From contig NZ_JABBWV010000002.1 in NCBI RefSeq assembly GCF_012999535.1, forward strand, positions 62,001 to 126,000: a DNA stretch of 64,000 nt, given 5' to 3'. Of the stretch, positions 22,067 to 59,789 are shown piece after piece; the stretch's first letter is position 1, and every line of letters starts with the position of its first letter. Made by a program: the position numbers and the translations under genes. The notes under the pieces were generated by a model. The model saw nothing but the letters and a program-made list of their open reading frames with translations. It did no database searches and was not told the DNA's origin. The DNA comes from Microbispora sp. H11081 (GTDB lineage Bacteria > Actinomycetota > Actinomycetes > Streptosporangiales > Streptosporangiaceae).

Positions 22067-22804
22067 ATGCGGCACTACATCAAGGTCGAAATGCTGCGGA
22101 TGCTGCGCAACAAGCGCTACATCATCTTCGTGGTGGCCTTCCCCGTCGGGTTCTACCTCCTCTACTCCAACCTCTGGGGGTCGGAGTCCGACCAGGCGAC
22201 CGGGCTGCGCGGCAGCGTCCTGCTGATGGTGTCGATGGCCGCGTACGGCGCGCTGGCCGCCGCCATGATGTCGACGGCCGTGCCCTGGTCGCAGGAGCGG
22301 CACAGCGGCTGGCTGCGGCAGCTCCAGATCACCCCGCTGCCGGGCCGGGCGATCATCTTGACGAAGCTGGCCTCCTCGCTGCTGCTGGTGCTGCCGTCGC
22401 TGCTGCTGGTCGGCCTGGCAGCGGTGCTGACCCAGCACGTCTCGCTGCCGCCGCTGCGGTGGGTGGAGCTGATTTTGGCAATGTGGGCCGGCACGATCCC
22501 GTTCGCGGCGCTGGGCCTGGCGATCGGATCCCTGCTGCCGCCCGACACCGCGCAGCCCGTCGCGATGATCGGCATGTTCGGGCTGGCCCTGCTCGGCGGG
22601 CTCTGGTTCCCCGAGAGCATGATGCCCGCGACCATGAAGAGCATCGCCCACGTCACCCCGTCGTACGACTACGCGCGCATCGGATGGCGGATCGCGGCGG
22701 GCGAGACCCCGCACGCGGCCGACGCGGCCGGCATCCTCGCCTGGGGGATCGCTCTGGTGGGGCTGGCGCTCGTCGCCTACCGTCGTGCCACGGTGCGCGC
22801 CTGA
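22067..22804 (+). CDS. ABC-2 type transporter permease
   Basis: 245-aa permease with six membrane segments; the amphipathic start MRHYIKVEMLRMLRNKRYI and the conserved GWLRQLQITPLPGRA coupling loop are typical of ABC-2 proteins linked to DesK/DesR systems. It starts two bases after the ATPase stop. Its last codons, including the stop, form the first copy of a three-copy 15-bp direct repeat. Confidence 0.9.
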   Translation: MRHYIKVEMLRMLRNKRYIIFVVAFPVGFYLLYSNLWGSESDQATGLRGSVLLMVSMAAYGALAAAMMSTAVPWSQERHSGWLRQLQITPLPGRAIILTKLASSLLLVLPSLLLVGLAAVLTQHVSLPPLRWVELILAMWAGTIPFAALGLAIGSLLPPDTAQPVAMIGMFGLALLGGLWFPESMMPATMKSIAHVTPSYDYARIGWRIAAGETPHAADAAGILAWGIALVGLALVAYRRATVRA

Positions 22805-22887: not shown

Positions 22888-24054
22888 ATGAGCTGGCTGG
22901 CCAACGTGTTCACCTTCGGCGGGATCGACGAGCGTCCCTCCCGCCTGAGGCGCCTGATGGGCATGTCGCTGGGCCTGATCTACCTCTTCTACCCGGTGTC
23001 CGAGGTGATCGACGGCACGGTGAGCGGCGCGCGGGCGGTCTGGTGGATGAGCGCGCTCGCGGCCTTCGTGGCCGCCTATCTGGCGGTCGTGCTGGGGCCG
23101 CGCGATCTCGACCACCACCCCCGGTGGATGTTCCATCTGCTCGGCGTCGTGACGACGATGGCGGCCGTCTTCCCGTTGATCTTCCGGAGCCCTTCCTGGC
23201 TGACCCTGCCGGTCTACATGGTGGTGGTCTACGCGATGGGCCTGCCGCCTCGCCGCGCCCTGCTGGGGATCGCGGCGATGGGTGGGCTCGTCCTCGCCGA
23301 GGGCAAGGTCATAGGCGCCGACGACGGTATGGTGTGGGCGCTCGTGCTGCAGATCATCACGCTCGGCGTGCTGTTCGTGAGCGTCCGCAACACCCGTATC
23401 CTCGTCGTCCAGCTGAGGCAGGCACAGAGCGAGGTCGCCAGGCTGGCCGCCACGGAGGAGCGGCTGCGGATCGCCCGGGACCTGCACGACCTGCTGGGAC
23501 ACAGCCTCTCGCTCATCGTGCTCAAGAGCGAACTGGCCCGCCGCCTGGGCGAGCAGGGCTCGCCGAAGGCCGCAGGGGAGGTGGCGGACATCGAGTCGGT
23601 GGCGCGGCAGGCGCTGGCCCAGGTGCGCGAGGCCGTCAGCGAATACCGCCGGCGCCGCCTGTCGGAGGAGATCGACGGCGCCAGGTCGGCGCTTGGCGCC
23701 GCCGGCGTCGCCCTCACCGTGCGCACCCGCGGCACCCCGCTGCCCGAGGACCTCGACGGCCTGTTCGCCTGGGCCGTGCGCGAGGCCACCACCAACGTCG
23801 TACGGCATTCCGGGGCCACCCGCTGCGAGATCGACGTGTCGTACGGCGAGGAGGGCGCGGTGCTGGAGATCGCCGACAACGGCGGCGGCGCGTACGAGCC
23901 GGGCAACGGCCTCACCGGGCTCGGCGAGCGGGTGCGCGCGGCGGGCGGGAGCCTGGAGGTCGAGGCCGGCAGGCATGGGTTCAGGGTGCGGGTGGCGGTT
24001 CGGCCGCCCCTGGACCGTGCGGCCGAGATGACCGCGGATAGGTTGGGCCAGTGA
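22888..24054 (+). CDS. DesK-type sensor histidine kinase
   Basis: 388-aa kinase. About five membrane segments (residues 25-170) are followed by a coiled linker (LRQAQSEVARLAATEERLRIA), the HisKA_3 phospho-acceptor box RDLHDLLGHSLSLIVLKSEL with its His, and an HATPase domain with REATTNVVRHSGA (N-box) and IADNGGG / NGLTGLGERV (G-boxes). GGAGGGA at 22874-22880 supports ATG 22888. Its stop overlaps the response-regulator start by GTGA. Probably senses membrane state and controls the ABC genes just upstream. Confidence 0.93.
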   Translation: MSWLANVFTFGGIDERPSRLRRLMGMSLGLIYLFYPVSEVIDGTVSGARAVWWMSALAAFVAAYLAVVLGPRDLDHHPRWMFHLLGVVTTMAAVFPLIFRSPSWLTLPVYMVVVYAMGLPPRRALLGIAAMGGLVLAEGKVIGADDGMVWALVLQIITLGVLFVSVRNTRILVVQLRQAQSEVARLAATEERLRIARDLHDLLGHSLSLIVLKSELARRLGEQGSPKAAGEVADIESVARQALAQVREAVSEYRRRRLSEEIDGARSALGAAGVALTVRTRGTPLPEDLDGLFAWAVREATTNVVRHSGATRCEIDVSYGEEGAVLEIADNGGGAYEPGNGLTGLGERVRAAGGSLEVEAGRHGFRVRVAVRPPLDRAAEMTADRLGQ

Positions 24055-24656
24055 TCAGGGTCGTGCTGGCGGAGGACCAGAGCATGGTGAGGGGAGCGCT
24101 CGCCTCCCTGCTCGGCCTGGAGCCTGACATCGAGGTGGTCGGAGAGGCGGCGGACGGCGACGAGGTGATCGGCGTCGCCGAGGCGACCAAGCCGGACGTC
24201 GCGCTGCTCGACATCGAGATGCCCGGCAGGGACGGGATCTCCGCCGCCGAGGAGTTGCGCCTGCGGGTCCCCGGATGCAAGGTGGTGATCCTCACGACGT
24301 TCGGCAGGCCCGGCTATCTGCGCCGCGCGATGGAGGCGGGGGCGGTGGCCTTCCTGGTGAAGGACAGCCCGGCGAGCGAATTGGCCGCCGCGATCAGGCG
24401 GGTGCTGCGGGGCGAGCGCGTGATCGATCCGGGGCTGGCCGCCGCCGCGCTAAGCGCGGGGCCGAACCCGCTGTCGCCGCGTGAGCGCGACGTGCTGTCC
24501 GCGGCGGCGGACGGCTCGACGATCAACGACATCGCGCTGCGGCTGCACCTGTCGGAGGGCACGGTGCGCAACTACCTGTCGGCGGCCATCCACAAGACCG
24601 GCGCGCGCAACCGGATCGAGGCCGTCCAGAAGGCCCAGGCGCAGGGCTGGCTCTGA
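24051..24656 (+). CDS. DesR-like LuxR-family response regulator
   Basis: 201-aa partner of the preceding kinase. Receiver domain with acidic pocket LAEDQ, phospho-acceptor D54 in LLDIEMPGR and the conserved KD in FLVKDSPA; LuxR-type HTH at about residues 140-200 (LSPRERDVLSAAADG, LHLSEGTVRNYLS). GTG 24051 overlaps the kinase stop. It resembles the RamR-like regulator at 47420 in domain plan. Confidence 0.94.
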   Translation: MIRVVLAEDQSMVRGALASLLGLEPDIEVVGEAADGDEVIGVAEATKPDVALLDIEMPGRDGISAAEELRLRVPGCKVVILTTFGRPGYLRRAMEAGAVAFLVKDSPASELAAAIRRVLRGERVIDPGLAAAALSAGPNPLSPRERDVLSAAADGSTINDIALRLHLSEGTVRNYLSAAIHKTGARNRIEAVQKAQAQGWL

Positions 24657-47419: not shown

Positions 47420-48076
47420 TTGATCCGACTGATGCTCGCCGAGGACATGCACCTCATACGCAAGGCCCTGGTCGCTCTGCTGTCGAGCGAGGACGACCTC
47501 GAGGTGGTCGCGGAGGCGGACAAGGGCGAGGACATCGTGCGGCTCGGCTGCCTGCGGCATCCCGACGTCGCGGTGCTCGACATCGGGATGCCCGGTGTCG
47601 ACGGGCTCACCGCGGCGGCGGAGCTGCACCGCCGATTACCCTCCTGCAAGACCGTCGTCCTCACGGGCCTCGGCACGCCCACCGCGCTGCGCAAGGCGCT
47701 GGACGCCAACGTCCGCGGCTTCGTCGTGAAGGACGCCTCACCGGGTCACCTCGTGGACTGCATCCGCCGCGTGGCGAAGGGAGAGCGGGTCGTCGACCCC
47801 GAGCTCGCGGTGGCCGCGCTCGACGCCGAGGCCAACCCGCTGACCGCACGCGAGCTCGACGTCCTGGAGACCGCCGCGGGCGGCGCGACCGTCGGCGAGA
47901 TCGCCGAGCGCCTGTCGCTGTCGCGCGGCACGGTCCGCAACTACCTGTCCCGCATCCTCACCAAGGTCGGCGCCCGCTCACGCGTCGAGGCGATCCAGAT
48001 CGCCTCCGAGTGCGGCTGGCTCTGGCCCGCGGCCGGGCGCGACATCGGCATCCTGCGCTACCGCTCCCGCCGGTAG
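47420..48076 (+). CDS. ramR: RamR/AmfR-like LuxR-family response regulator
   Basis: 218-aa regulator. Receiver domain with LAEDMH, D54 in VLDIGMPGV and FVVKDASPG; LuxR HTH at about 139-200 (LTARELDVLETAAGG, LSLSRGTVRNYLSR). TTG 47420 follows AGGGGG at 47408-47413; a hairpin (CGCGAGC/GCTCGCG, 47382-47399) and two CACGAAAC direct repeats (47341, 47375) precede it. It converges on the lanthipeptide transporter gene and overlaps it by 99 bases. Position beside RamCSAB-like genes suggests it activates them, as RamR does in Streptomyces; the name rests mainly on this context. Confidence 0.82.
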   Translation: MIRLMLAEDMHLIRKALVALLSSEDDLEVVAEADKGEDIVRLGCLRHPDVAVLDIGMPGVDGLTAAAELHRRLPSCKTVVLTGLGTPTALRKALDANVRGFVVKDASPGHLVDCIRRVAKGERVVDPELAVAALDAEANPLTARELDVLETAAGGATVGEIAERLSLSRGTVRNYLSRILTKVGARSRVEAIQIASECGWLWPAAGRDIGILRYRSRR

Positions 48077-49801
48077 CGGCCCCGGGCCCGCCCAGTGGCC
48101 GACCAGGTCCGCGTACAGCGGCGAGGCGGCCACCATCTCCTCGTGCGTGCCGAGCAGCACGCGGGTGCCGTCCATGACGAGCACGCGCCGGGCCCGCAGG
48201 GCAGAGGAGATCCGGTGCGCCACGACGATCACCGTGCCCCCGCGCGCGGCGAACGCCTCCTCCGCCCGCGCCTCCGCCGCCGGGTCGAGGTGGCAGGTCG
48301 ACTCGTCGAGCACGACCAGCCGGGCGGGGGACAGGTAGGTCCTGGCCAGCGCGACCAGCTGCCGCTCGCCCGCCGACAGCTCGGCCGGGTCGAGCGGGCC
48401 GCCCGCCGTCCGCCGCGCCAGCTCCGTCAGCCCGAACGTCGCCACCGCCTCGTCCACCCGCTCGGCCGGCGTCCGCGGTGCGAGATAGGTCAGGTTCTCC
48501 GCCAGGGTGCCGGAGAAGACGTACGCCTCCTGGGGGATCAGCGCCCTGGCGGCCGGATGGACCCGCGCGGCGGGGACGCCGCCGACGAGCACCTCGCCCT
48601 GGTCCGGGCTCAGCAGTCCGGCGACCAGGGCGGCGAGCGTGGACTTGCCGATCCCGCTCGGGCCGACGACGGCCAGGTGGTCGCCCTCCGGCACGTCCAG
48701 GTCCAGGCCGTCGATCACCGGCTCGGCGGCCTTCCCGCCGGGAGCGCCGTAGGCGAAGCGCACCCCGCGCAGTTCCAGGCGGACCCCGGGGGGCCGCTGG
48801 TCGCCGTGCGGCACGGGCGGGCCGGGAGCGTGCAGGATGCGCTCCAGCGTGACGGCCAGGCGGACGCCGCTGACGCCGAGGCCCTGCACGAGGCCCCCGA
48901 GCGCGGGGGAGAGCGACTGCATCACATAGGTCAGCGAGCCGAGGATCACTCCGCCGGTGACGCCCTGGCGCACCAGCCAGGGCCCGGCCGCGAGCAGGAG
49001 CACGACCGGCAGCCACGCGCCCGCCGCCAGCGACAGCGTCCGCGACGCCGTCACCCTGGCCAGCGCCCGCGCGGCCCTCGCCTGCCGGGAGACCTCCCGC
49101 CCGACGCTCGCGAGGACGCGCTCCTCGCCGCCGCACGCGGTCACGTCGCGCAGCCCGCCCGCCATCGCCGCCACCGCCCCGGCCGTACGCTCGTCGGCGA
49201 TGATGAACTCGCGCTGACGCCGCGCGAGGGCGGGCAGCGAGACGAGGAACAGGCCGAGACCCAGAGCCGTCGGCGCCAGCACGAGCGGGACGACCAGCGG
49301 GGTCAGCGTCGTGAGCCCCACGACCACGCCGGCCAGCGTGAACACGAAGGTCCTGACCACCGTGATGATCGCGCCGAAGGCGTCCCTCGCCAGTTCCACC
49401 TGGTGGTTCATCCGGGCGACGGCGGCGCTGTCGCCGCCCCGCCCCGCACGCAGCGCCCCGGCCACCACGCGCTCCAGCAGATCGTCGCGGAAGGGCTCGA
49501 CGATCCCGGCGACGAGCAGCAGCACCTGCCGGGCGGCGACCGCGGCGACCCCCCACGCGGCGGCGAGCACGCCCAGCCACATCAGGCCGGAGCCGGGCCT
49601 GCCCGCGGCGAAGCCGTCGTCCACGGCCCGTGCGATCGCGTACCCGCCGGACAGCGCGGGCAGCGCCTCCGCCAGCGACCACAGGGCCAGCCACAGCAGC
49701 CGGGACGGCTCGCGCAGCAGCGCCCGGGTGACCACGCGCCGCACCTCTGCCCGCCGCGCGCCGGCCTCCCCCGGCCCCCCGGCGGGGCCGCGCCGCCTCA
49801 C
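47978..49801 (-). CDS. ramB: Lanthipeptide ABC exporter subunit (RamB-like)
   Basis: 607-aa half-transporter: six membrane helices (about residues 30-310) and an ATPase domain with Walker A GPSGIGKSTL, Q-loop LIPQEAYVFSG, signature LSAGERQLVAL, Walker B LVVLDESTCHLD and switch VVAHRIS. The catalytic Glu is present, unlike in its partner. No C39 peptidase domain, so it does not cut the leader. GTG 49801 overlaps the partner's stop by GTGA. The last about 30 residues run into the RamR-like gene on the other strand and look like an extension beyond the usual end (VGHWAGPG). Confidence 0.88.
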   Translation of the reverse strand: MRRRGPAGGPGEAGARRAEVRRVVTRALLREPSRLLWLALWSLAEALPALSGGYAIARAVDDGFAAGRPGSGLMWLGVLAAAWGVAAVAARQVLLLVAGIVEPFRDDLLERVVAGALRAGRGGDSAAVARMNHQVELARDAFGAIITVVRTFVFTLAGVVVGLTTLTPLVVPLVLAPTALGLGLFLVSLPALARRQREFIIADERTAGAVAAMAGGLRDVTACGGEERVLASVGREVSRQARAARALARVTASRTLSLAAGAWLPVVLLLAAGPWLVRQGVTGGVILGSLTYVMQSLSPALGGLVQGLGVSGVRLAVTLERILHAPGPPVPHGDQRPPGVRLELRGVRFAYGAPGGKAAEPVIDGLDLDVPEGDHLAVVGPSGIGKSTLAALVAGLLSPDQGEVLVGGVPAARVHPAARALIPQEAYVFSGTLAENLTYLAPRTPAERVDEAVATFGLTELARRTAGGPLDPAELSAGERQLVALARTYLSPARLVVLDESTCHLDPAAEARAEEAFAARGGTVIVVAHRISSALRARRVLVMDGTRVLLGTHEEMVAASPLYADLVGHWAGPGPLPAGAVAQDADVAPGRGPEPAALGGDLDRLDA

Positions 49802-51615
49802 GCGTCCTCCCCGGCACGGAAGACCGCCCGGTAGGAGGGGTCCTCCCACAGGCGGTCGTGCGTGCCGGTCGCGCGGACCCGCCCATCCTCCAGCCACACG
49901 ACCTGGTCGGCCCGCGCCGCCGTCGTCACCCTGTGGGCCACCACCAGCCGGGTCCGGCCGGACAGGCTCCCGGTGAGCGCGCGCGCCACCTGCCGCTCGG
50001 TCGCCGTGTCCAGGCTCGACATGGCGTCGTCCAGGATCAGCAGCCGGCCGGCCTGGGCGAACGCGCGGGCCAGGCCGACGCGCTGGATCTCGCCCCCCGA
50101 CATGGGCGCCTCGCCGACCGGAGTGGCGTAGCCGCGCGGCAGCCGCCGGATGAAGCCGTCGGCCCGGGCGGCGCGGGCGGCCGATCGCACGACGCCGGAG
50201 TCTCCGCTCGGCCCGGTGTCTCCGCTCGGCCCGGTGTGTCCAGTTGGCCCGGTGTCTCCAGTGGGCGTGGTGTCTCCGCCTCGCTCGCCTGGGGCGTCCC
50301 CTGGGCCCAGCCCGAAGGCGACGGCCTCGCCCAGCGTCTCGCCGAACAGCGCGGGCCGCTCGAACGCGTACCCCACCGCACGGCGCAGCGGCTCGCGGCC
50401 GATCTCGCGCAGGGGCACCCCGTCGAGCAGGACGGCGCCGCGTTCCGGATCGACGAGGCGGCCCGCGACGGCGGCCAGCGACGACTTGCCAGAGCCGGAA
50501 CGCCCCACGACCGCCGTGCACGTGCCGCCTGGCACGACCAGGTCGACGCCGCTCAGCAGCCGCGCGCCGCCGGCCCGCACGGTGACGTCGCGCAGTTCCA
50601 GGGTGCCGGGGCCCGGCGGCAGCGCGCGGCCACCGTACAGGGGGGCAGGAACGGCGAACAGCTGCTCAAGCCGTACGGCGGCGGACCGGGCGCGGGCGAT
50701 GCGCGCCGCGTATCCGAGCGCCGACCCGAGGCCCGCGCCGAGCACGACGTACCGCGCGGCGGCCAGCAACTCCCCGACGGTCAGGCCGCCCGTCGACAGG
50801 CGCAGCCCGCCGACCGCGAGCACCGCGATCTCCAGGAGCGGGATCACGACGGCGGCCTGCACGCCGGCCCGCGCCTGCAGCCGCCACAGCGCGAGGCCGC
50901 TGGCCCGCAGGCGGGGGAGCGGGGCGAGCACGCGCGCGGCCTCCCGCTCCTCGGTCCCGGCGGCGGTGATGGTGCGGGCCCCGGCGAGCGCGCCGACGAG
51001 CATGCCCGCGATCTCCCCCTGGGCCTGCTGGTATCCGCCGGAGGCCGCCGTGGTCTTCCGCATGAACGCGCGCAGCACCGCCACGATCACGAGCAGGCCG
51101 GCCACCAGGGTGCCCGCGAGCCACGGGTCGATCAGCGCGAGGGCGACGACGCTGCCGGCCGCCGGAACGATCAGCGTGGCGGCAGTGACCACCGCCTCGG
51201 GGGTCCGCCCGGCCTCCTCCACGTTCACCCCCGCCCGGGTGACGAGCTCGCCCGGTGTGAGATGCCGGGTCATGCCCGCGCCGACGGACAGGGTGTGCGC
51301 CACGACCCGGGAGCGCAGCCACTGCGCGGCCCGCGCGCCGCTCACCCCGGCCGCGAGCACCCCCAGGGCGTCGCACGCGACCACCAGCGCGACCAGCAGC
51401 GCGGCGGTCGCGACCGGGCCGGTGAGCCAGGCGCCGGCCGCCGATCCGTCGCCGGGCCTGATCCCCACCACGGCGTCGACCGCGCGGCCGAGCGCCGCCG
51501 GGAGCAGCAGGTCGGCCGCGGCGCCCAGCAGCGCCGTCGCCGTCAGCACCGCGAGCCAGGGGCCGCCGCGCCGTACGGCCCGCGCGATCAGCAGGTCCGC
51601 CGGACGAGAACTCAC
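49798..51615 (-). CDS. ramA: Lanthipeptide ABC exporter subunit (RamA-like) with degenerate ATP site
   Basis: 605-aa half-transporter. Six membrane helices, then an ATPase domain with Walker A GRSGSGKSSL and signature MSGGEIQRVGL, but the Q-loop Gln is Glu (AFERPALFG) and the catalytic Glu after Walker B is Asp (LLILDDAMSSLD), so one ATP site of the heterodimer is probably weak. Between Q-loop and signature lies an insert of collagen-like G-x-y triplets encoded by an 18-bp minisatellite. GTG 51615 has GGAGG five bases upstream; ATG 51627 has no site. No peptidase domain. Confidence 0.86.
   Translation of the reverse strand: MSSRPADLLIARAVRRGGPWLAVLTATALLGAAADLLLPAALGRAVDAVVGIRPGDGSAAGAWLTGPVATAALLVALVVACDALGVLAAGVSGARAAQWLRSRVVAHTLSVGAGMTRHLTPGELVTRAGVNVEEAGRTPEAVVTAATLIVPAAGSVVALALIDPWLAGTLVAGLLVIVAVLRAFMRKTTAASGGYQQAQGEIAGMLVGALAGARTITAAGTEEREAARVLAPLPRLRASGLALWRLQARAGVQAAVVIPLLEIAVLAVGGLRLSTGGLTVGELLAAARYVVLGAGLGSALGYAARIARARSAAVRLEQLFAVPAPLYGGRALPPGPGTLELRDVTVRAGGARLLSGVDLVVPGGTCTAVVGRSGSGKSSLAAVAGRLVDPERGAVLLDGVPLREIGREPLRRAVGYAFERPALFGETLGEAVAFGLGPGDAPGERGGDTTPTGDTGPTGHTGPSGDTGPSGDSGVVRSAARAARADGFIRRLPRGYATPVGEAPMSGGEIQRVGLARAFAQAGRLLILDDAMSSLDTATERQVARALTGSLSGRTRLVVAHRVTTAARADQVVWLEDGRVRATGTHDRLWEDPSYRAVFRAGEDA
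50200..50280 (-). repeat. 18-bp minisatellite inside the RamA-like ATPase domain
   Basis: Plus-strand unit GTCTCCGCTCGGCCCGGT at 50200-50217 and 50218-50235 (identical), degenerate copies at 50236-50253 and 50254-50271 and a partial copy after. In the gene each unit encodes T-G-P-S-G-D or a variant (T-G-P-T-G-H), keeping the frame. Confidence 0.9.
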
Positions 51616-51663
51616 GTGGTCCTCCATGAGTGCGAGGGCGGGAGGGGGCCGGAAACGCGGAAG

Positions 51664-51690
51664 CCTGGGCGGCCGCGACGACCGCCCAGG
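51664..51690 (-). terminator. Hairpin between precursor genes and exporter genes
   Basis: CCTGGGCGG (51664-51672) and CCGCCCAGG (51682-51690) pair perfectly over 9 bp with a 9-nt loop, 19 bases after the second precursor stop and about 48 before the exporter start. There is no T tract. Probable attenuator or 3'-end stabiliser that keeps precursor message above transporter message. Confidence 0.7.
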
Positions 51691-51708
51691 ACTCCGTTAC
51701 GCGAGCTG

Positions 51709-51840
51709 TCAGCCGCAGATGAGGCTGAGGCTGCTGTTCTCGTGCGGGGTGCAGCCCAGCAGGCTCAGGTTGCTGCCGCCGCCGCCACCGCCGCTGTGGC
51801 CGCCGGGGACTTCGAGCGTCTGCAGGTCGAGAAGCGCCAT
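51709..51840 (-). CDS. ramS: SapB-like lanthipeptide precursor 2
   Basis: 43-aa prepeptide. Leader starts MALLDLQTLE, the L-x-D-L-Q helix recognised by class III synthetases; a Gly-rich stretch (VPGGHSGGGGGG) leads to the core SNLSLLGC, then TPHEN, then SSLSLICG. The two S-x2-S-x3-C and S-x2-S-x2-C arrays match the ring pattern of SapB. AAGGAGA lies upstream of ATG 51840. It differs from precursor 1 mainly in the Gly linker, at residue 2 and in Ile for Val near the end. Confidence 0.95.
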   Translation of the reverse strand: MALLDLQTLEVPGGHSGGGGGGSNLSLLGCTPHENSSLSLICG

Positions 51841-51906
51841 GAGAATCTCCTTGTATGAGTGCCGTCAGCCGGATCGCGGCCGAAGATCGTGATCACCGAA
51901 GGGTCG

Positions 51907-52035
51907 TCAGCCGCAGACGAGGCTGAGGCTGCTGTTCTCGTGCGGGGTGCACCCGAGCAGGCTCAGGTTGCTGCCGCCGCCGCCACCGCCGGAGCCCGTG
52001 GGGGCCTCCAGGGTCTGCAGGTCGAGGAGAGTCAT
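51907..52035 (-). CDS. ramS: SapB-like lanthipeptide precursor 1
   Basis: 42-aa prepeptide, MTLLDLQTLE leader, linker APTGSGGGGGG, core SNLSLLGC-TPHEN-SSLSLVCG. Ser/Ser/Cys triplets would become labionin or lanthionine rings with a HEN turn between them. An ideal GGAAGGAGG ribosome site overlaps the end of the synthetase gene and lies about eight bases before ATG 52035. Processing site cannot be read from sequence; the Gly run is a likely cleavage zone. Expected role: surfactant-like morphogenetic peptide at the hyphal surface. Confidence 0.95.
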   Translation of the reverse strand: MTLLDLQTLEAPTGSGGGGGGSNLSLLGCTPHENSSLSLVCG

Positions 52036-52042
52036 CGTGCGT

Positions 52043-54658
52043 TCACCTCCTTCCGGTGCTGGTCGGGACGGATGACCCGGCGGCGGTGCGCAGGGGCCCC
52101 TGCGCCCTGAGACCGTCCGGGGGCTCGAGGAACGGGAGGCCGACCGGCGCGTCGTGCAGCGCGGCGCCGAGCGCGAGCAGCACTCCGGCACTCCCTGTGG
52201 CGAGGTCCATGGACAGGCGGAGCAACTGGGCTCCGGGGAAGGCCAGCCCGCCCTGGTAAGGAAGCTCGTGCCAGGCCAGCCGGGCGATCTGCGCCGCGGC
52301 GGCCCCGGGATCGGGGCGGGAGCCCGACGACAGGCAGGCGATCATGCCGGCCCGCCCCGCGAACAGCCCCGGCTGGACGTAGTAGTCCAGGGTGGTCACC
52401 GGCCTGATCGCGGCCAGCGACTCGGCGAAGGTCTCGTCGTGCCGGTGCGCGAGGAAGCGGTCGAGCACCAGGCCGATCCCGGCCGACCCCTCGTCGAGGT
52501 AGGGGTTGGTCCGCCACCCCTGCTGCACCTGGAGCTGGCCGTCCTCGCGGCCGACGCACCGGCGCAGGTCCTGCCGCAGGGCGGTGGCCGCGAGGTCGAG
52601 CAGCCCGGGGTCGCCGGTCCGCTCGTAGGCGTGCAGGAACATCAGGGCGGGTCCTGAGGAGCCGTACATCAGCCCCGCGTGGGGATGCCTGCCGCCGCTG
52701 ATCTCGGGCACGTCGTCCGGGCCGCCGAGCCGGTCGGCCACCTCGGCCATGACGCGGGCGGCCCGCTCGCGGAACTCCGGCTCGCCGGTCGCGTCGTGCA
52801 GGTGCGTCAGGGCGAGGGCCACGCCGGACAGGCCGCGGTAGAGGCTCAGGTCGAGCCCTTCTCCGTGCCCCCGCGCGCACCGTTCCGCCACGGCGAGCGC
52901 GTCGTCGCGGCGGCCGAGCGCCTCCAGCGCGTACGCCACGCCGTGCAGGCCGTTGTAGAACCCGATGCCGATCCCGGGCCTGGCGGCCTGCCTGACGAGC
53001 CACTCCTCGTGCTCGGGGAAGCGCCCTGCCCCGGTCGCCGCCAGCGCCCACAGCACACCGGCCGCGCCGTTGGCGAGGCTCACGCCGCCGCCCGGCTCGA
53101 ACTGGAGGATGTCGCCGGGGAACAGCCGGTCCTCGCGGTCCGGCGTCGCCGAGGCGAGGATCGCCCTCGCCAGCGCGTCCCGTACGGCGGGCCAGTCCTG
53201 CCTCGCGCGGTCCTGCCGGGGGAGCGCGCTCGCCTGCGGCGCGGGCGGGTCCTGCCCGAGAATGGTGCGCACGGCTCCCTCGATCAGCGCGGGGGGCACC
53301 GGGAACGTCTCGGTGACCAGCCGCCCGAGCTGCGCGGCCTTGGGCCGGTGAAGCTGCAGCAGCATGGTGGTCATCGGGGCGAACACCCCGAGGTGCAGGC
53401 AGGCCAGCGCGTACTCGTCGGCCTCGACGCCGGCCAGCCCGGCCGGCGGCACGAAGCCGGGGTTGGCGAGCGTGGGGCGCCTGCGCTCCTCGACCGGCGA
53501 GGAGACCTCGAAGTCGATCAGCACCACGCGCTCGCCCTCGACGAGGATGTTGAAGGGGTGCAGGTCGCCGAACACGACGCCGCGTTCGTGCAGCGCGGAG
53601 ACCGCCGCCCGCACCTTGGCGAGCATCCCGACGGCCCACTCGGTGTATTCCGCGTCCGCCCGCGGCGTGCGGTCGGCCCGGGTGAGGGGGTGCTTCTGGG
53701 CGATGAGCTGGCTGAGCGAGGCGCCGTCGACGTACTCCTGCACCAGGAAGTGGTGCTCGCCCACGGTGAAGTAGTCGCGCAGGGCCGGCACCACGTCGAG
53801 GCCGGTCAGGCGTTCCAGGATCGCGGCCTCGTGCCGCAGGCGGGTGACGGCGTCGCGTCCCTCGACGTCGAGCCCGGCGTGCGGGCGGGCCTCCTTCAGC
53901 ACCACCTGCTCGCCGGTGCGCCTGTCGCGCCCGAGGTACACCCCGCCGCCGTTGGAGAAGTGCAGGACGCTCTCCACGTCGTACGGCACGCCTTCGAGCG
54001 TCACCGCGTCGCGGGCGGCCAGGTGCGGTTCGAGGAAGGCCGGCAGGGTGACCCAGGAGGGCAGGGAGAACGCGGGCCCGCGCACGTCGGGGACGAGGCG
54101 GCCGTCGGCGTCCTCGATCGCGAGCACCCGCTCGCCGTTGTCGTCGAGGCAGTGGCGCTCGGCGAACCCGCCGTAGCGGACGAACAGGGGCCCTTCGCCG
54201 TAGCGCAGGTCGCTCAGGATGTACGGGCCCTCGACGCCGTCGAGGATCTCGGCGAGCTCCTTGAGCGTCAGCTCCAGCTGGGCCTCGTCGACCGGATAGA
54301 CGGTGACCAGCTTGCCGCTCGACCCGCGGAAGGCGTATTTGGAGTTCTGCATCGTCATCACGCGCCGGCCGCGCAGGAACTTGAAGGCCAGCCCGCGGGG
54401 CACGCAGTAGTCCCACGCCGCCGCGATCACCTGTTCCGCCTCGGGCACGGACGAGGAGATGTGGATCTTCCAGCCCTGCGTGGGCAGAGCCGCGCCGGCC
54501 GGCGCGTAGTGCAGCCAGGTCTCGCTCTCGGCGTGCCACCAGCCCTCGGGCGTGGGCCGGGCGGCGATGGAGAAGTCGGGGTGCTCGGCGCGCTTGCCGT
54601 CGAGCGTGTCGTAGAACAAGGGATCTGCGAGGCAGTAAATCTCGTACTTACTAATCAC
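52043..54658 (-). CDS. ramC: Class III lanthionine synthetase (RamC/LanKC-like)
   Basis: 871-aa synthetase that phosphorylates Ser, eliminates to dehydroalanine and forms rings. N-terminal lyase-type region (YEIYCLADPLFYD start, FKFLRG), kinase domain with glycine loop NGGGVYLG (about 236-243), K255 in VVLKEARP, catalytic GDLHPFN (D365, N370) and DFE (D382), and a LanC-like C-terminal domain. The Cys/Cys/His zinc ligands are absent (GSSGPALMF, GLFAGRAGM), which marks class III rather than IV. GTG 54658 follows GAGGGGA by six bases; the longer frame is not needed. Precursor 1 starts seven bases after the stop. Confidence 0.95.
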   Translation of the reverse strand: MISKYEIYCLADPLFYDTLDGKRAEHPDFSIAARPTPEGWWHAESETWLHYAPAGAALPTQGWKIHISSSVPEAEQVIAAAWDYCVPRGLAFKFLRGRRVMTMQNSKYAFRGSSGKLVTVYPVDEAQLELTLKELAEILDGVEGPYILSDLRYGEGPLFVRYGGFAERHCLDDNGERVLAIEDADGRLVPDVRGPAFSLPSWVTLPAFLEPHLAARDAVTLEGVPYDVESVLHFSNGGGVYLGRDRRTGEQVVLKEARPHAGLDVEGRDAVTRLRHEAAILERLTGLDVVPALRDYFTVGEHHFLVQEYVDGASLSQLIAQKHPLTRADRTPRADAEYTEWAVGMLAKVRAAVSALHERGVVFGDLHPFNILVEGERVVLIDFEVSSPVEERRRPTLANPGFVPPAGLAGVEADEYALACLHLGVFAPMTTMLLQLHRPKAAQLGRLVTETFPVPPALIEGAVRTILGQDPPAPQASALPRQDRARQDWPAVRDALARAILASATPDREDRLFPGDILQFEPGGGVSLANGAAGVLWALAATGAGRFPEHEEWLVRQAARPGIGIGFYNGLHGVAYALEALGRRDDALAVAERCARGHGEGLDLSLYRGLSGVALALTHLHDATGEPEFRERAARVMAEVADRLGGPDDVPEISGGRHPHAGLMYGSSGPALMFLHAYERTGDPGLLDLAATALRQDLRRCVGREDGQLQVQQGWRTNPYLDEGSAGIGLVLDRFLAHRHDETFAESLAAIRPVTTLDYYVQPGLFAGRAGMIACLSSGSRPDPGAAAAQIARLAWHELPYQGGLAFPGAQLLRLSMDLATGSAGVLLALGAALHDAPVGLPFLEPPDGLRAQGPLRTAAGSSVPTSTGRR

Positions 54659-54736
54659 CAGATGTCCCCTCAGTCCGGTCACATCAAAGAATTCCGGAAA
54701 TGGGGAGAACGGCCAAGTTACGCCCGTCAACGAGGT

Positions 54737-54755
54737 CATGTGAATTCTGCACATG
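54737..54755. promoter_or_regulatory. Inverted repeat upstream of the lanthipeptide operon
   Basis: CATGTG-N7-CACATG lies 79-97 bases upstream of the synthetase start. Its left arm is part of GTCATGTG (54735-54742), which recurs twice in the minisatellite at 54903-54985. Candidate activator site; which protein binds is unknown. Confidence 0.5.
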
Positions 54756-54902: not shown

Positions 54903-54985
54903 GTGCGCCGGGTGTCATGTGCGCCGGGTGTCATGTGCGCCGGGATGGACGTGCGTGCCGGGATGGACGTGCGTGCCGGGCGGAC
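54903..54985. repeat. Five-unit minisatellite upstream of the synthetase
   Basis: Units: GTGCGCCGGGTGTCAT at 54903-54918 and 54919-54934, GTGCGCCGGGATGGAC at 54935-54950, GTGCGTGCCGGGATGGAC at 54951-54968 and GTGCGTGCCGGGCGGAC at 54969-54985. No credible gene lies in the 54659-55128 gap, so the array is in the control region of the operon or the kinase 3' flank. Confidence 0.9.
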
Positions 54986-55128: not shown

Positions 55129-55887
55129 TCAGCGGCGCTCTCCGCTCCTGCGGGGGATCTCGACGATGAGGCGGAACCAGCCGTCCGGGTCGAGGATCGT
55201 TCCCATCATGCCGCCGAGCGCCGCCGCCCGGTTGCGCAGGTTGTCGAGGCCGTTCCCCTCGCCGGGCGGCACGGAGGAGTCGACGCCGTCGTTGGCGACG
55301 GTGAGCGTCACCGCGGGACCGCGCACGGCGATCTCGATCGTGCACAGGGACGCCTCGCTGTGGCGCAGGACGTTGGTCACCGCCTCCCGCACCATGATCG
55401 CGAGCGTGGCGCTCACCTCGCGGCCCAGTTCCGCCTCGGCGACCACGACCTTGCAGTCGGCTCCGTACGCGCGGAGTGCGGCCCGGGCGTTGGCCAGTTC
55501 CGAGGTGAGCGAGACGTCCTGGAAGGAGCGGGTCACGTCGCGGATGTCGGCGTACGCCTGACGGATCGCCTGCACCACGTCGGCGAGCGCCGGTCGCAGG
55601 GGGCTGTCGTCGTCGGTGAGCCGGTAGGCGAGTTCGCTGCGCAGGGTGGCCAGCCACAGGCGGTTGCTCACGAGGTCGTGCACGTCGCGGCCGAACTGCT
55701 CGCGTGCCTCCGCCGCCGCCTGGCGCACGGCGACGGCCTGCAGCGCGCGCAACCGGCGCAGCCGCATCGCGAGGATCACCAGCGCGACGATGAGGAGCGT
55801 GCCGAGCAGGAGGAGCAGGGCGATGAGGGTGAACTGCGGCAAGTGACGACCCTCCAGTCGGGCTTGCCGTAACATCGGCCCCGCCAT
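55129..55887 (-). CDS. DesK-type histidine kinase flanking the lanthipeptide operon
   Basis: 252-aa kinase with one membrane helix (about residues 20-42: TLIALLLLLGTLLIVALVIL), a short coiled linker, a HisKA_3 box with the phospho-His in FGRDVHDLVSNRLWLATLRS, and an HATPase domain (REAVTNVLRHSEA, VANDGVD, GNGLDNLRNRAAALGG). It has almost no sensor domain. No response regulator is adjacent; the nearest of matching class is the RamR-like protein at the far end of the operon. ATG 55887 is one of several possible starts (GTG 55896, ATG 55875). Confidence 0.85.
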   Translation of the reverse strand: MAGPMLRQARLEGRHLPQFTLIALLLLLGTLLIVALVILAMRLRRLRALQAVAVRQAAAEAREQFGRDVHDLVSNRLWLATLRSELAYRLTDDDSPLRPALADVVQAIRQAYADIRDVTRSFQDVSLTSELANARAALRAYGADCKVVVAEAELGREVSATLAIMVREAVTNVLRHSEASLCTIEIAVRGPAVTLTVANDGVDSSVPPGEGNGLDNLRNRAAALGGMMGTILDPDGWFRLIVEIPRRSGERR

Positions 55888-55931
55888 TGAGTGCACAGGT
55901 TAGATCTTTGCATACCGGTCAGGAAATATGG

Positions 55932-57667: not shown

Positions 57668-58738
57668 TCACCAGCGCAGCAGGACGAGTTCGGAGCAGAA
57701 ACCCGGGCCCATCGCCATCAGCAGGCCCGGCGTGCCCGGCGGAGGCGGCCGCTGGGCGAGCGTGTCGCGCAGCACGTGCAGCACCGAGGCGGACGACAGG
57801 TTGCCGTTGGCGGCCAGCGAGCGCCAGGTGAGATCGAGCGCGCCGTCCGGCAGCGCGAGCGTCTCCGCCACGGCCTCCAGCACCTTGGGGCCGCCGGGAT
57901 GGCAGACCCAGGCGGCGACGTCGCCGGTGGTCAGGCCGTGGTCGGCGAGGAACCCGTGCACGTCGGCGCCCAGGTAGGCGCGGACGACGTCGGGCACCCC
58001 GGCGTCGAGCACCACCCGGAAGCCGCTGTCGCGGACGTCCCAGCCCATCACGCGTTCCGAGCCGGGATAGAGGTGGCCGCGCGTCGCGACGACCGCGGGC
58101 CCCGACGCGCCGCCGTCCCCGGGTGGCTCGCGGTCGTCCCCGTACGCGACCACGGCGGCGGCGCCGTCCCCGAAGAGGGCGCCCGCCACGAGGTTGGCCG
58201 TGGAGGTGTCGTCGCGCTGCAGGGTGAGGGAGCACAGCTCCACCGAGAGCAGCACCGCCACGTGACCGGGCCAGCCGCGCAGGTAGTCGTGCAGCCGGGC
58301 GATCCCCGCCGCGCCCGCGACGCATCCGAGGCCGAACACCGGCACCCGCTTCACGTCGGGGCGCAGGCCGATCCGCCCGGCCAGCCGGGCGTCCAGCGAC
58401 GGCGCGGCGACGCCGGTGACCGACGTGCACATGATCAGGTCGACGTCCGCGGGCGTGAGGCCGGCCGCGTCCAGCGCCGCCGTGACGGCCTGCGCGCCCA
58501 GGTCGAGCGCGGCCTCGATGAACAGGTCGTTGGCCGCGCCGAAGCCGTCGAGCTTGCCGTACTGGTCGAGCGGCAAGACGAGGTTGCGGTGCTCCACGCG
58601 GGCGCCGGTGTGCAGTCTGTCGAGGAGCCGGCGGTCGGCGCCGGGAGGAAGGCAGACCCGCGCCAGGGTGTCCGCGATCTCCGCCTGCGAGTGACGATGT
58701 GGGGGGACGACACCGTGGACAGCCGCGATTCGCGTCAT
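57668..58738 (-). CDS. Type III polyketide synthase (SrsA-like)
   Basis: 356-aa chalcone-synthase-fold enzyme that extends an acyl starter with malonyl-CoA. Catalytic triad C139 ([12 protein letters not shown]), H280 ([10 protein letters not shown]) and N313 ([10 protein letters not shown]) is complete, and the C-terminal GPG loop is [14 protein letters not shown]. Partner genes suggest an alkylresorcinol/alkylpyrone synthase with a fatty acyl starter. ATG 58738 has a GAGGATG upstream. It heads the three-gene operon and diverges from a UbiA gene. Confidence 0.95.
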
Positions 58739-58859
58739 CTCACATCCTCGGGCTGGCGAAAATCGTGACAAGTGCGTCTTGCCCGCTGCGGGGCGTCGCA
58801 TGCCTCCGGAGCCCTCGCGATGATCTCGCCTCCGCGAGGTCCCCGGTTAGGCTCGGGGC

Positions 58860-59789
58860 GTGACCGGCTCCGAGGCGCCGCCCGACGACACGACCGACCG
58901 CACCGCCGACCGCACCGCCGACGACACCGCCGACCGCACCGCCGCCGAGACGGCCGGGTTATGGCGTACGGCGGCCGGGCTGGCCAGGGCGTGCCATCCG
59001 GGTCCGGCCGCGGCGGTGACGGTGCTGCTCGCCGTGCTCGTGGCGCTCGCCGGATGGGGACCGGCGGGGACGGCGCTCGCGGCTCTGGCCGTGCTGACCG
59101 GGCAACTGTCCGTGGGCTGGTGCAACGACGCCGTGGACGCCGCCAGGGACGCCGCGGCGGCGCGGACGGCCAAGCCGATCGTCGCGGGACTGGTGACCGC
59201 GCGCACGGTGCGCGCCGCGGCGTTCGCCGCGCTGGCGGCCTGCGTGCCGCTCTCGCTGGCCTGTGGTCCCGTGGCGGGGGTGACACACCTGTTCGCCGTG
59301 GCCGCGGCCTGGGCCTACGACCTGTGGCTCAAGGGCACCGCCGCATCATGGGCGCCGTACGCCGCGGGGTTCGGCGCGGTGCCGGTGTTCGTGGCGGCGG
59401 GGACGCCGGGCGGTGTGCCGCCGGCCTGGTGGGCGGTGCTCGCCGCGGCGCTGCTCGGCTGCGCGGCGCACCTCGCCAACGTGCTGCCCGACATCGACCA
59501 GGACGTCGCCACGGGAGTGCGAGGCTGGCCGCAGCGCCTCGGCCCCGCGCGGGTGCGGGTCCTCCTGCCGCTGCCGCTGCTGGCCGCCTCCGGGCTCCTG
59601 GTCGTGGGTCCTCCGGGCCCGGCCGGTCCGCTGCGGTGGCTGGCGCTCGCGGGGGTGGCCGTGTGCGCCGCGGCGGGGCCGCTGCTCGGGCGGCGTGTGC
59701 CCCGGGCGCCCTTCGCCGCCGCGATCGGCGCCGCCGGCGTCGACGTCCTGCTGCTGGCGGCCGCGCCGGGGGCGTTCACCGCAGGGTGA
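58860..59789 (+). CDS. UbiA-family prenyltransferase
   Basis: 309-aa integral membrane prenyltransferase with about eight helices. The two Asp-rich motifs are N89-D90-x2-D93-x3-D97 (WCNDAVDAARD) and N207-x3-D211-x-D213-x-D215 (NVLPDIDQD). The N-terminus carries a degenerate D-R-T-A-D repeat. TAGGCT at 58848-58853 lies six bases before GTG 58860, suggesting a leaderless message. Divergent from the type III PKS operon; it may prenylate its phenolic product or serve another lipid. Its 3' end overlaps the convergent DUF2079 gene by 14 bases. Confidence 0.88.
   Translation: MTGSEAPPDDTTDRTADRTADDTADRTAAETAGLWRTAAGLARACHPGPAAAVTVLLAVLVALAGWGPAGTALAALAVLTGQLSVGWCNDAVDAARDAAAARTAKPIVAGLVTARTVRAAAFAALAACVPLSLACGPVAGVTHLFAVAAAWAYDLWLKGTAASWAPYAAGFGAVPVFVAAGTPGGVPPAWWAVLAAALLGCAAHLANVLPDIDQDVATGVRGWPQRLGPARVRVLLPLPLLAASGLLVVGPPGPAGPLRWLALAGVAVCAAAGPLLGRRVPRAPFAAAIGAAGVDVLLLAAAPGAFTAG

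Follow-up and report, generated by a model that had tools for sequence, protein, structure and literature searches.

Background

The described loci closest to the one reported here are those for SapB in Streptomyces coelicolor (ramCSAB/ramR) and AmfS in Streptomyces griseus (amfTSAB/amfR), which combine a class III lanthionine synthetase (LanKC), a short precursor peptide, two ATP-binding cassette (ABC) transporter genes and a response regulator. The same components, including precursors of the same family (NF033212/PF19402), are present in Microbispora sp. H11081 within a 64,000-nucleotide stretch of contig NZ_JABBWV010000002.1 (hereafter the window, to which all positions refer). Here we describe this locus, compare it with its relatives and report two additions to the known locus type, namely a hairpin that closes the precursor array and a histidine kinase and response regulator that probably form a split two-component pair around the operon.

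The available excerpts of the cited literature provide several points of reference. The class III motif is stated there as S-(X)2-S-(X)2-5-C (PMC8960859), and 57% of class III precursors are given as the sole precursor of their cluster, so that the remaining ones come from multi-precursor clusters (PMC7268733). A 2013 survey reports ramR in streptomycetes only (PMC4255298). Durhapeptin from Streptomyces durhamensis belongs to the same SapB/AmfS family as the present locus, and its durKC-durA-transporter-regulator layout is likened to ram and amf. The durhapeptin locus has one precursor gene, and mass spectrometry and partial hydrolysis supported two labionins in its product (PMC13380574). Among the titles and abstract openings covered by our literature searches, mostly as partial lists, no SapB-type locus from Microbispora or other Streptosporangiaceae and no kinase partner of RamR was described.

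Gene content and class assignment

As a whole, the locus is very likely a class III lanthipeptide operon of the SapB/AmfS type, and it is a well-formed and conserved further representative of an already known family. The minus-strand genes are transcribed in the order kinase, LanKC, precursors A1 and A2, and ABC half-transporters 1 and 2, with a convergent NarL/LuxR-type response regulator at the far end (Table 1). For the comparison with SapB and AmfS we used two annotated Streptomyces plasmid loci (L093 and L094) as stand-ins for the S. coelicolor and S. griseus loci. Both are annotated as lanKC, SapB/AmfS precursor, two ABC genes and convergent response regulator, which is the order in the window minus the kinase. 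A first-pass annotation of this DNA had likened the LanKC, precursor, ABC, ABC and LuxR-type regulator genes to ramCSAB/ramR and read the locus as class III and SapB-like. All of its genes lie where it placed them, and the curated models, the gene layout and the relatives back its reading. The hairpin and the kinase are absent from that account, the latter lying outside the interval it covered.

The synthetase scored 1107 bits with the class III model NF038151 (cut-off 575) and 400 bits with the class IV model (cut-off 650); it also matched RamC_N (271 bits), Pkinase and LANC_like. Zinc cyclases carry a CHG motif at the aligned zinc site. In the alignment of the LanKC cyclase region to a solved LanKC-like chain, no Cys-His motif was found at this site, and QPGLFAGRAG stands in its place, in line with the lack of Cys or Cys-His zinc ligands that marks class III. 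The metal independence of such cyclases is described in the excerpted text of PMC10604976. The same excerpt contains a point that weighs against ring closure by this enzyme, since cyclization by ThurKC needed an Asp at a seemingly equivalent place; the residue that follows the LF pair is Asp in 9wop_A, the solved LanKC chain used for alignment, and Ala in the window enzyme. Because the residue after the LF pair varies widely among LanKC relatives, we did not count this Ala as a sign of a dead cyclase. The genome also encodes another LanKC-like protein (L070, C43:83009-85609), which scored 445 bits, under the class III cut-off, and is perhaps a class IV or a divergent class III enzyme.

The two half-transporter genes overlap by 4 bp; no membrane-domain match was listed for the second one in the Pfam search. 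The regulator frame begins with TTG at 47420 and shares 99 bp with the convergent frame of half-transporter 2, the last transporter gene. Within the first ABC gene, an 18-bp tandem repeat of 4.7 copies (50195-50279) translates into a T-G-P-rich, collagen-like stretch, located by eye between Walker A and the signature motif; its Pfam Collagen score of 11.8 bits is below the cut-off.

Table 1. Features of the SapB/AmfS-type locus, with positions in the window.
Feature	Position	Strand	Details and support
NarL/LuxR-type response regulator, 218 aa, convergent	47420-48076	+	PF00072 74.7 bits, PF00196 58.5 bits
ABC half-transporter 2	47978-49801	-	PF00005 84.3 bits
ABC half-transporter 1, membrane and ATPase domains	49798-51627	-	PF00664 56.1 bits, PF00005 71.7 bits
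GC-rich hairpin between last precursor and transporter genes	51658-51696	-	17 pairs, 1 mismatch
Precursor A2, RamS/AmfS family, 43 aa	51709-51840	-	NF033212 57.7 bits, PF19402 50.5 bits
Precursor A1, RamS/AmfS family, 42 aa	51907-52035	-	NF033212 56.0 bits, PF19402 49.2 bits
Class III lanthionine synthetase LanKC (RamC/AmfT type), 871 aa, GTG start	52043-54658	-	NF038151, RamC_N, Pkinase, LANC_like
Candidate promoter/operator block	54689-54754	-	GTTGACGGGCGTAAC at 54717-54731, TTCCGGAATTC at 54689-54699, dyad ATGTGCAGAATTCACAT at 54738-54754
Small histidine kinase, 255 aa, HisKA_3 domain	55129-55896	-	PF07730; aligned with relatives

Precursors and their distribution

Both precursors (MTLLDLQTLEAPTGSGGGGGGSNLSLLGCTPHENSSLSLVCG and MALLDLQTLEVPGGHSGGGGGGSNLSLLGCTPHENSSLSLICG) exceed the curated cut-offs, 25 bits for NF033212 and 24.3 bits for Pfam RamS (PF19402). 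The first-pass description of the peptides also agrees with ours: each has an LLDLQ leader of the LxLQ type and two ring motifs of the S-x2-S-x(2-5)-C form, the first S-x2-S-x3-C and the second S-x2-S-x2-C, separated by a T-P-H-E-N hinge. The differences between A1 and A2 are mainly in the leader and the Gly-rich linker, and a V/I exchange is the sole difference in the last 21 residues. Cleavage to 21-residue segments starting with SNLSL would give calculated monoisotopic masses of 2057.966 and 2071.982 after loss of four waters, a difference of 14.016 Da. The shortened second motif was found in all 39 aligned precursors of the T-P-H-E-N group, where the hinge reads TPHEN in 37 and VPHEN in two (both from L041). 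In L094 this segment is one residue longer (x3), and Streptosporangiaceae loci outside the group have a different hinge and second ring (for example KPSNLSLLLC, x3).

NF033212 matches, counted genome-wide, occur in 193 of the 341 family genomes searched and in 14 of the 15 genomes of the genus, nine of which have two matches, three have three, two have one and one has none. The count for LanKC is also 14 of 15; a single genome, 92% complete in 810 contigs, lacks both LanKC and a precursor. Gene order is kept in all ten named Microbispora relatives; the nearest of them, L032, has 93% identity across the entire synthetase. We further defined a set of 26 close loci (the window, L032-L048 and L050-L057) with synthetase identity of at least 59%. 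Tandem precursors, two or three, were found in 22 of these 26 loci with an untruncated array. Ten further named loci fall outside this set: contig ends truncate L049 and L064, and in eight more distant loci (L058-L063, L065, L066) the motif search used gave one precursor or none. L064 is a Sphaerisporangium record, titled plasmid, with the same type of synthetase and precursors.

The comparison of copy number across relatives that the first-pass annotation had suggested thus gave one to three copies within the genus, and the twin precursors that it took as unusual are common. The same applies to its view of the Gly-rich linker: tandem precursors and a Gly-rich rather than acidic leader end distinguish the window from SapB and AmfS, but such Gly-rich ends are usual among these loci. 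The loci of Streptosporangium, Planobispora, Sphaerisporangium and other Streptosporangiaceae share this leader end, one to three tandem precursors and a terminal hairpin.

The cores of the twin precursors were compared over 60-nt segments from 22 precursors in 11 Microbispora loci. First-copy cores are identical in L033, L035, L039 and L057, and that of L034 is 2 nt off. Second-copy cores are identical among L035, L039 and L057 and, separately, between L033 and L034. Inside each of these five loci, the first and second cores are 4-6 nt apart. Because the two copies form separate sets, the duplication appears older than the species, with both variants kept. General concerted evolution of the twin precursors is thereby rejected for these five loci; it may have acted in L032, which has three identical cores. 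In the window, the first core is 2 nt from the first copies and 4-6 nt from the second copies. All L032 cores and the second copies of L033 and L034 lie 1 nt from the second window core; the three other second copies are 3 nt away, and the first copies 3-4 nt. The lineage of this second core is less clear, since it stands 3 nt from three second copies and also from four first copies. L038 and L040 have a single precursor, and L036 and L037 have a different arrangement.

A conserved hairpin after the last precursor

Stems were scored downstream of 58 last and 40 earlier precursor copies, five locus pairs representing the same place. Two last copies (L020 and L064) were dropped, because each precedes another precursor that the contig end truncates. 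Stems of nine pairs or more were found after all 51 distinct untruncated last copies (median score 14 over all 58), in comparison with 2 of 36 distinct earlier copies (median score 6 over all 40); the two exceptions, L016/L041 with 10 pairs and L037 with 12, have one mismatch each. Comparable hairpins lie 3' of the lone precursor in L093 and L094. An Rfam search of the window at gathering scores gave no match.

We aligned 22 last-copy sequences (21 distinct) from the window, 20 named loci and L012, leaving out near-copies and more distant genera. Changes on both sides occur in 11 of 15 pairs, and 93.6% of the cells are paired. None of 500 shuffles reached any of five measures, and every slid control was lower, although the structure was derived from the same aligned sequences, a bias in its favour. 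A caution comes from mononucleotide shuffles of the GC-rich regions, which score 7.6 on average, with a 95% point of 11 and a maximum of 18. Single regions are therefore not decisive, and the case for the hairpin rests on covariation and position. The hairpin probably acts by partial termination or mRNA processing that would favour precursor over transporter mRNA.

A kinase and a response regulator flanking the operon

The less ordinary part of the locus is the matching sensor kinase and response regulator on its two sides. The kinase gene lies 470 bp upstream of the synthetase gene on the same strand; its product matched PF07730 at 36.7 bits (cut-off 24) and HATPase_c at 22.7 bits, below the cut-off of 26.4, and has one membrane segment as judged by eye. 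A scan of 79 loci (7 repeats, 72 distinct) with kinase and regulator profiles found both genes in 30 distinct loci, the kinase alone in one (L108), the regulator alone in ten and neither in 31. The last group includes truncated contigs (L049, L064, L104, L117) and loci with short upstream sequence (L061, L065); in L115, a regulator on the other side was not counted. Wherever both genes occur, which is the case in many of the other Streptosporangiaceae SapB/AmfS loci, the kinase is directly upstream of lanKC on the same strand and the regulator is convergent, 5-8 kb downstream. A convergent regulator thus accompanies the kinase in 30 of 31 kinase-bearing loci.

Paralogues in the same genome point to a functional relation between the two. 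Among 67 regulator matches (self included), the top two paralogues reach 53% each; at two genome places they directly adjoin the top two kinase paralogues, which reach 39% and 34% among 39 matches (self included). One of these pairs is in the window itself at 23278-24656 (+), near an ABC-2 type membrane gene at 22067-22804. Since the best paralogues are neighbours elsewhere and the genes co-occur in 30 of 31 loci, the kinase and regulator look like a split cognate pair.

The receiver pocket of the window regulator, E-D-D-T-K, is intact, as it is in 29 of the 30 loci with both genes (the exception is L121, E-N-D-T-K) and in only one of the ten regulator-alone loci (L118). This contrast has a Fisher p of 3.6e-7, in a test that treats related loci as independent, which they are not. 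In L093 and L094 the pockets are altered (EEDAK and HDDAK), and no kinase was detectable within about 9 kb on either side of lanKC. The window regulator is in the subfamily of their regulators and is ramR-like by position and subfamily. A one-way test for orthology pointed both ways: the window regulator was the best genome match for the L093 regulator (47%) but the second by E-value for that of L094 (48%), and three subfamily members in this genome outrank all other matches to both. In the excerpted text of PMC9739842, the S. coelicolor RamR appears among the orphan regulators, whereas the window has a kinase gene beside the cluster.

Alternative explanations

The first-pass annotation raised two products or a gene-dosage effect as possibilities, and the core comparison refines this question rather than settling it. 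The separate core lineages in five Microbispora loci favour two near-twin products over pure dosage, in which the second precursor would merely boost the amount of functionally one product and the V/I change would be neutral. The 4-6 nt that separate the cores within these loci argue against pure dosage, as does the identity of first copies across four of the five species and of second copies across three. Dosage is nonetheless consistent with the three identical cores of L032, the variation from one to three copies within the genus, the single-copy loci L038 and L040 and the position of the second window core close to the L032 cores; moreover, L/I/V swaps are chemically mild. On balance, we slightly favour the use of both products, distinguished by no more than one or two aliphatic residues, and regard pure dosage as somewhat less probable. 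As for the activity, a product that is mainly antibacterial or serves as another signal, instead of an aerial-growth surfactant, appears unlikely. Class III peptides do vary in activity, as the labyrinthopeptins exemplify, and NAI-112, a class III peptide, is described as antinociceptive. However, the SapB/AmfS subfamily model is the best precursor match, the layout is like that of morphogen loci, and the locus is present in 14 of 15 genus genomes, a distribution more in keeping with a core role in development than with a strain-specific antibiotic. A morphogen role, by analogy to SapB, is thus the reading we consider rather likely.

The alternative for the kinase and regulator is that they are not partners and only travel together as neighbours by common descent. 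Several observations weigh in this direction. The kinase profile was made from kinase-bearing loci and one paralogue only, although it gave no hit in the ten regulator-only loci even at E up to 1, and the likeness of the kinase to its best paralogues is modest (34-39%). On a quick LanKC tree, with several long branches and parts unsure, there are four kinase changes and three pocket changes, and the phylogeny-corrected link between kinase and pocket gave two concordant, no discordant and two undifferentiated cases among four independent pairs (p 0.5). The kinase link is an interesting lead, but one that depends on few independent evolutionary events. In addition, an entire operon separates the two genes; L118 has an intact regulator and no kinase, and L108 has a kinase and no regulator, also at relaxed thresholds (E up to 1 for the kinase, E up to 10 for the regulator). 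Neither gene is nearby in 31 of 72 loci, including Sphaerisporangium with T-P-H-E-N precursors, so the pair is not essential to this kind of locus. Against mere co-travelling stand the adjacent kinase-regulator pairs formed by the nearest paralogues at two other places and the positions of both genes, which are fixed across genera. We consider non-partnership rather improbable and a split two-component pair around the operon the likely arrangement.

Upstream region and neighbouring genes

A candidate promoter/operator block precedes lanKC (Table 1), and GTTGACGGGCGTAAC is identical in all 11 aligned Microbispora loci. The longer ATG frame of lanKC is probably not the gene, because conservation is seen around the GTG start and is lost further upstream. 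A kinase-linked operator was rejected as a reading of this region. For the dyad, a scan of 35 other loci for the form ATGTG-N5-9-CACAT, which the window has, gave five with a match (L032, L033, L034, L036, L037) and none among the remaining kinase-bearing loci; the dyad is therefore not tied to kinase presence. The shorter GTAACT...AATTCT block is spread more widely, but similar sequence is seen by eye at the kinase-less loci L054 and L044-L048. A sigma-factor assignment was dropped, as there was no -10 match.

Two short direct-repeat arrays with units of 16 and 18 bp lie at 54903-54980, between the kinase and lanKC. Just past the locus are a type III polyketide synthase-like gene (57668-58801, -) and a UbiA-type prenyltransferase gene (58860-59789, +); the former was matched near the cluster in all ten named Microbispora loci (79-94%) and in L043.

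Proposed function and significance

Judging from the genes and their conservation, the cluster probably makes two nearly identical, ring-bearing surface peptides of the SapB kind. LanKC would bind the LLDLQ leader of both precursors, phosphorylate and eliminate Ser, and, in each peptide, close two rings of the lanthionine or labionin type by a zinc-independent route. Trimming of the Gly-rich leader end may fall to a protease encoded elsewhere, and the ABC pair would export the two products, in which Val or Ile precedes the last Cys. The hairpin would keep precursor mRNA above transporter mRNA, and the upstream sensor kinase together with the downstream convergent regulator would switch the operon on. 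The product would probably serve as a surface-active morphogen at aerial growth. More tentatively, a true phosphorelay whose genes bracket the operon may control SapB-type morphogens in Streptosporangiaceae; the Streptomyces-type RamR would then have arisen secondarily, as an orphan left after loss of its kinase, with later decay of its pocket.

Since the locus is ordinary and widespread, the twin precursors are no discovery. Its value is that of a test case, in which the same operon occurs across Streptosporangiaceae with one to three precursors and an array closed by a conserved hairpin. Given this variation and the frequent presence of a kinase with an intact regulator, experiments outside Streptomyces can address how twin morphogens are used and which signal feeds into a RamR-like regulator. 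If the phosphorelay reading is true, the missing SapB-pathway sensor would be available in these actinomycetes.

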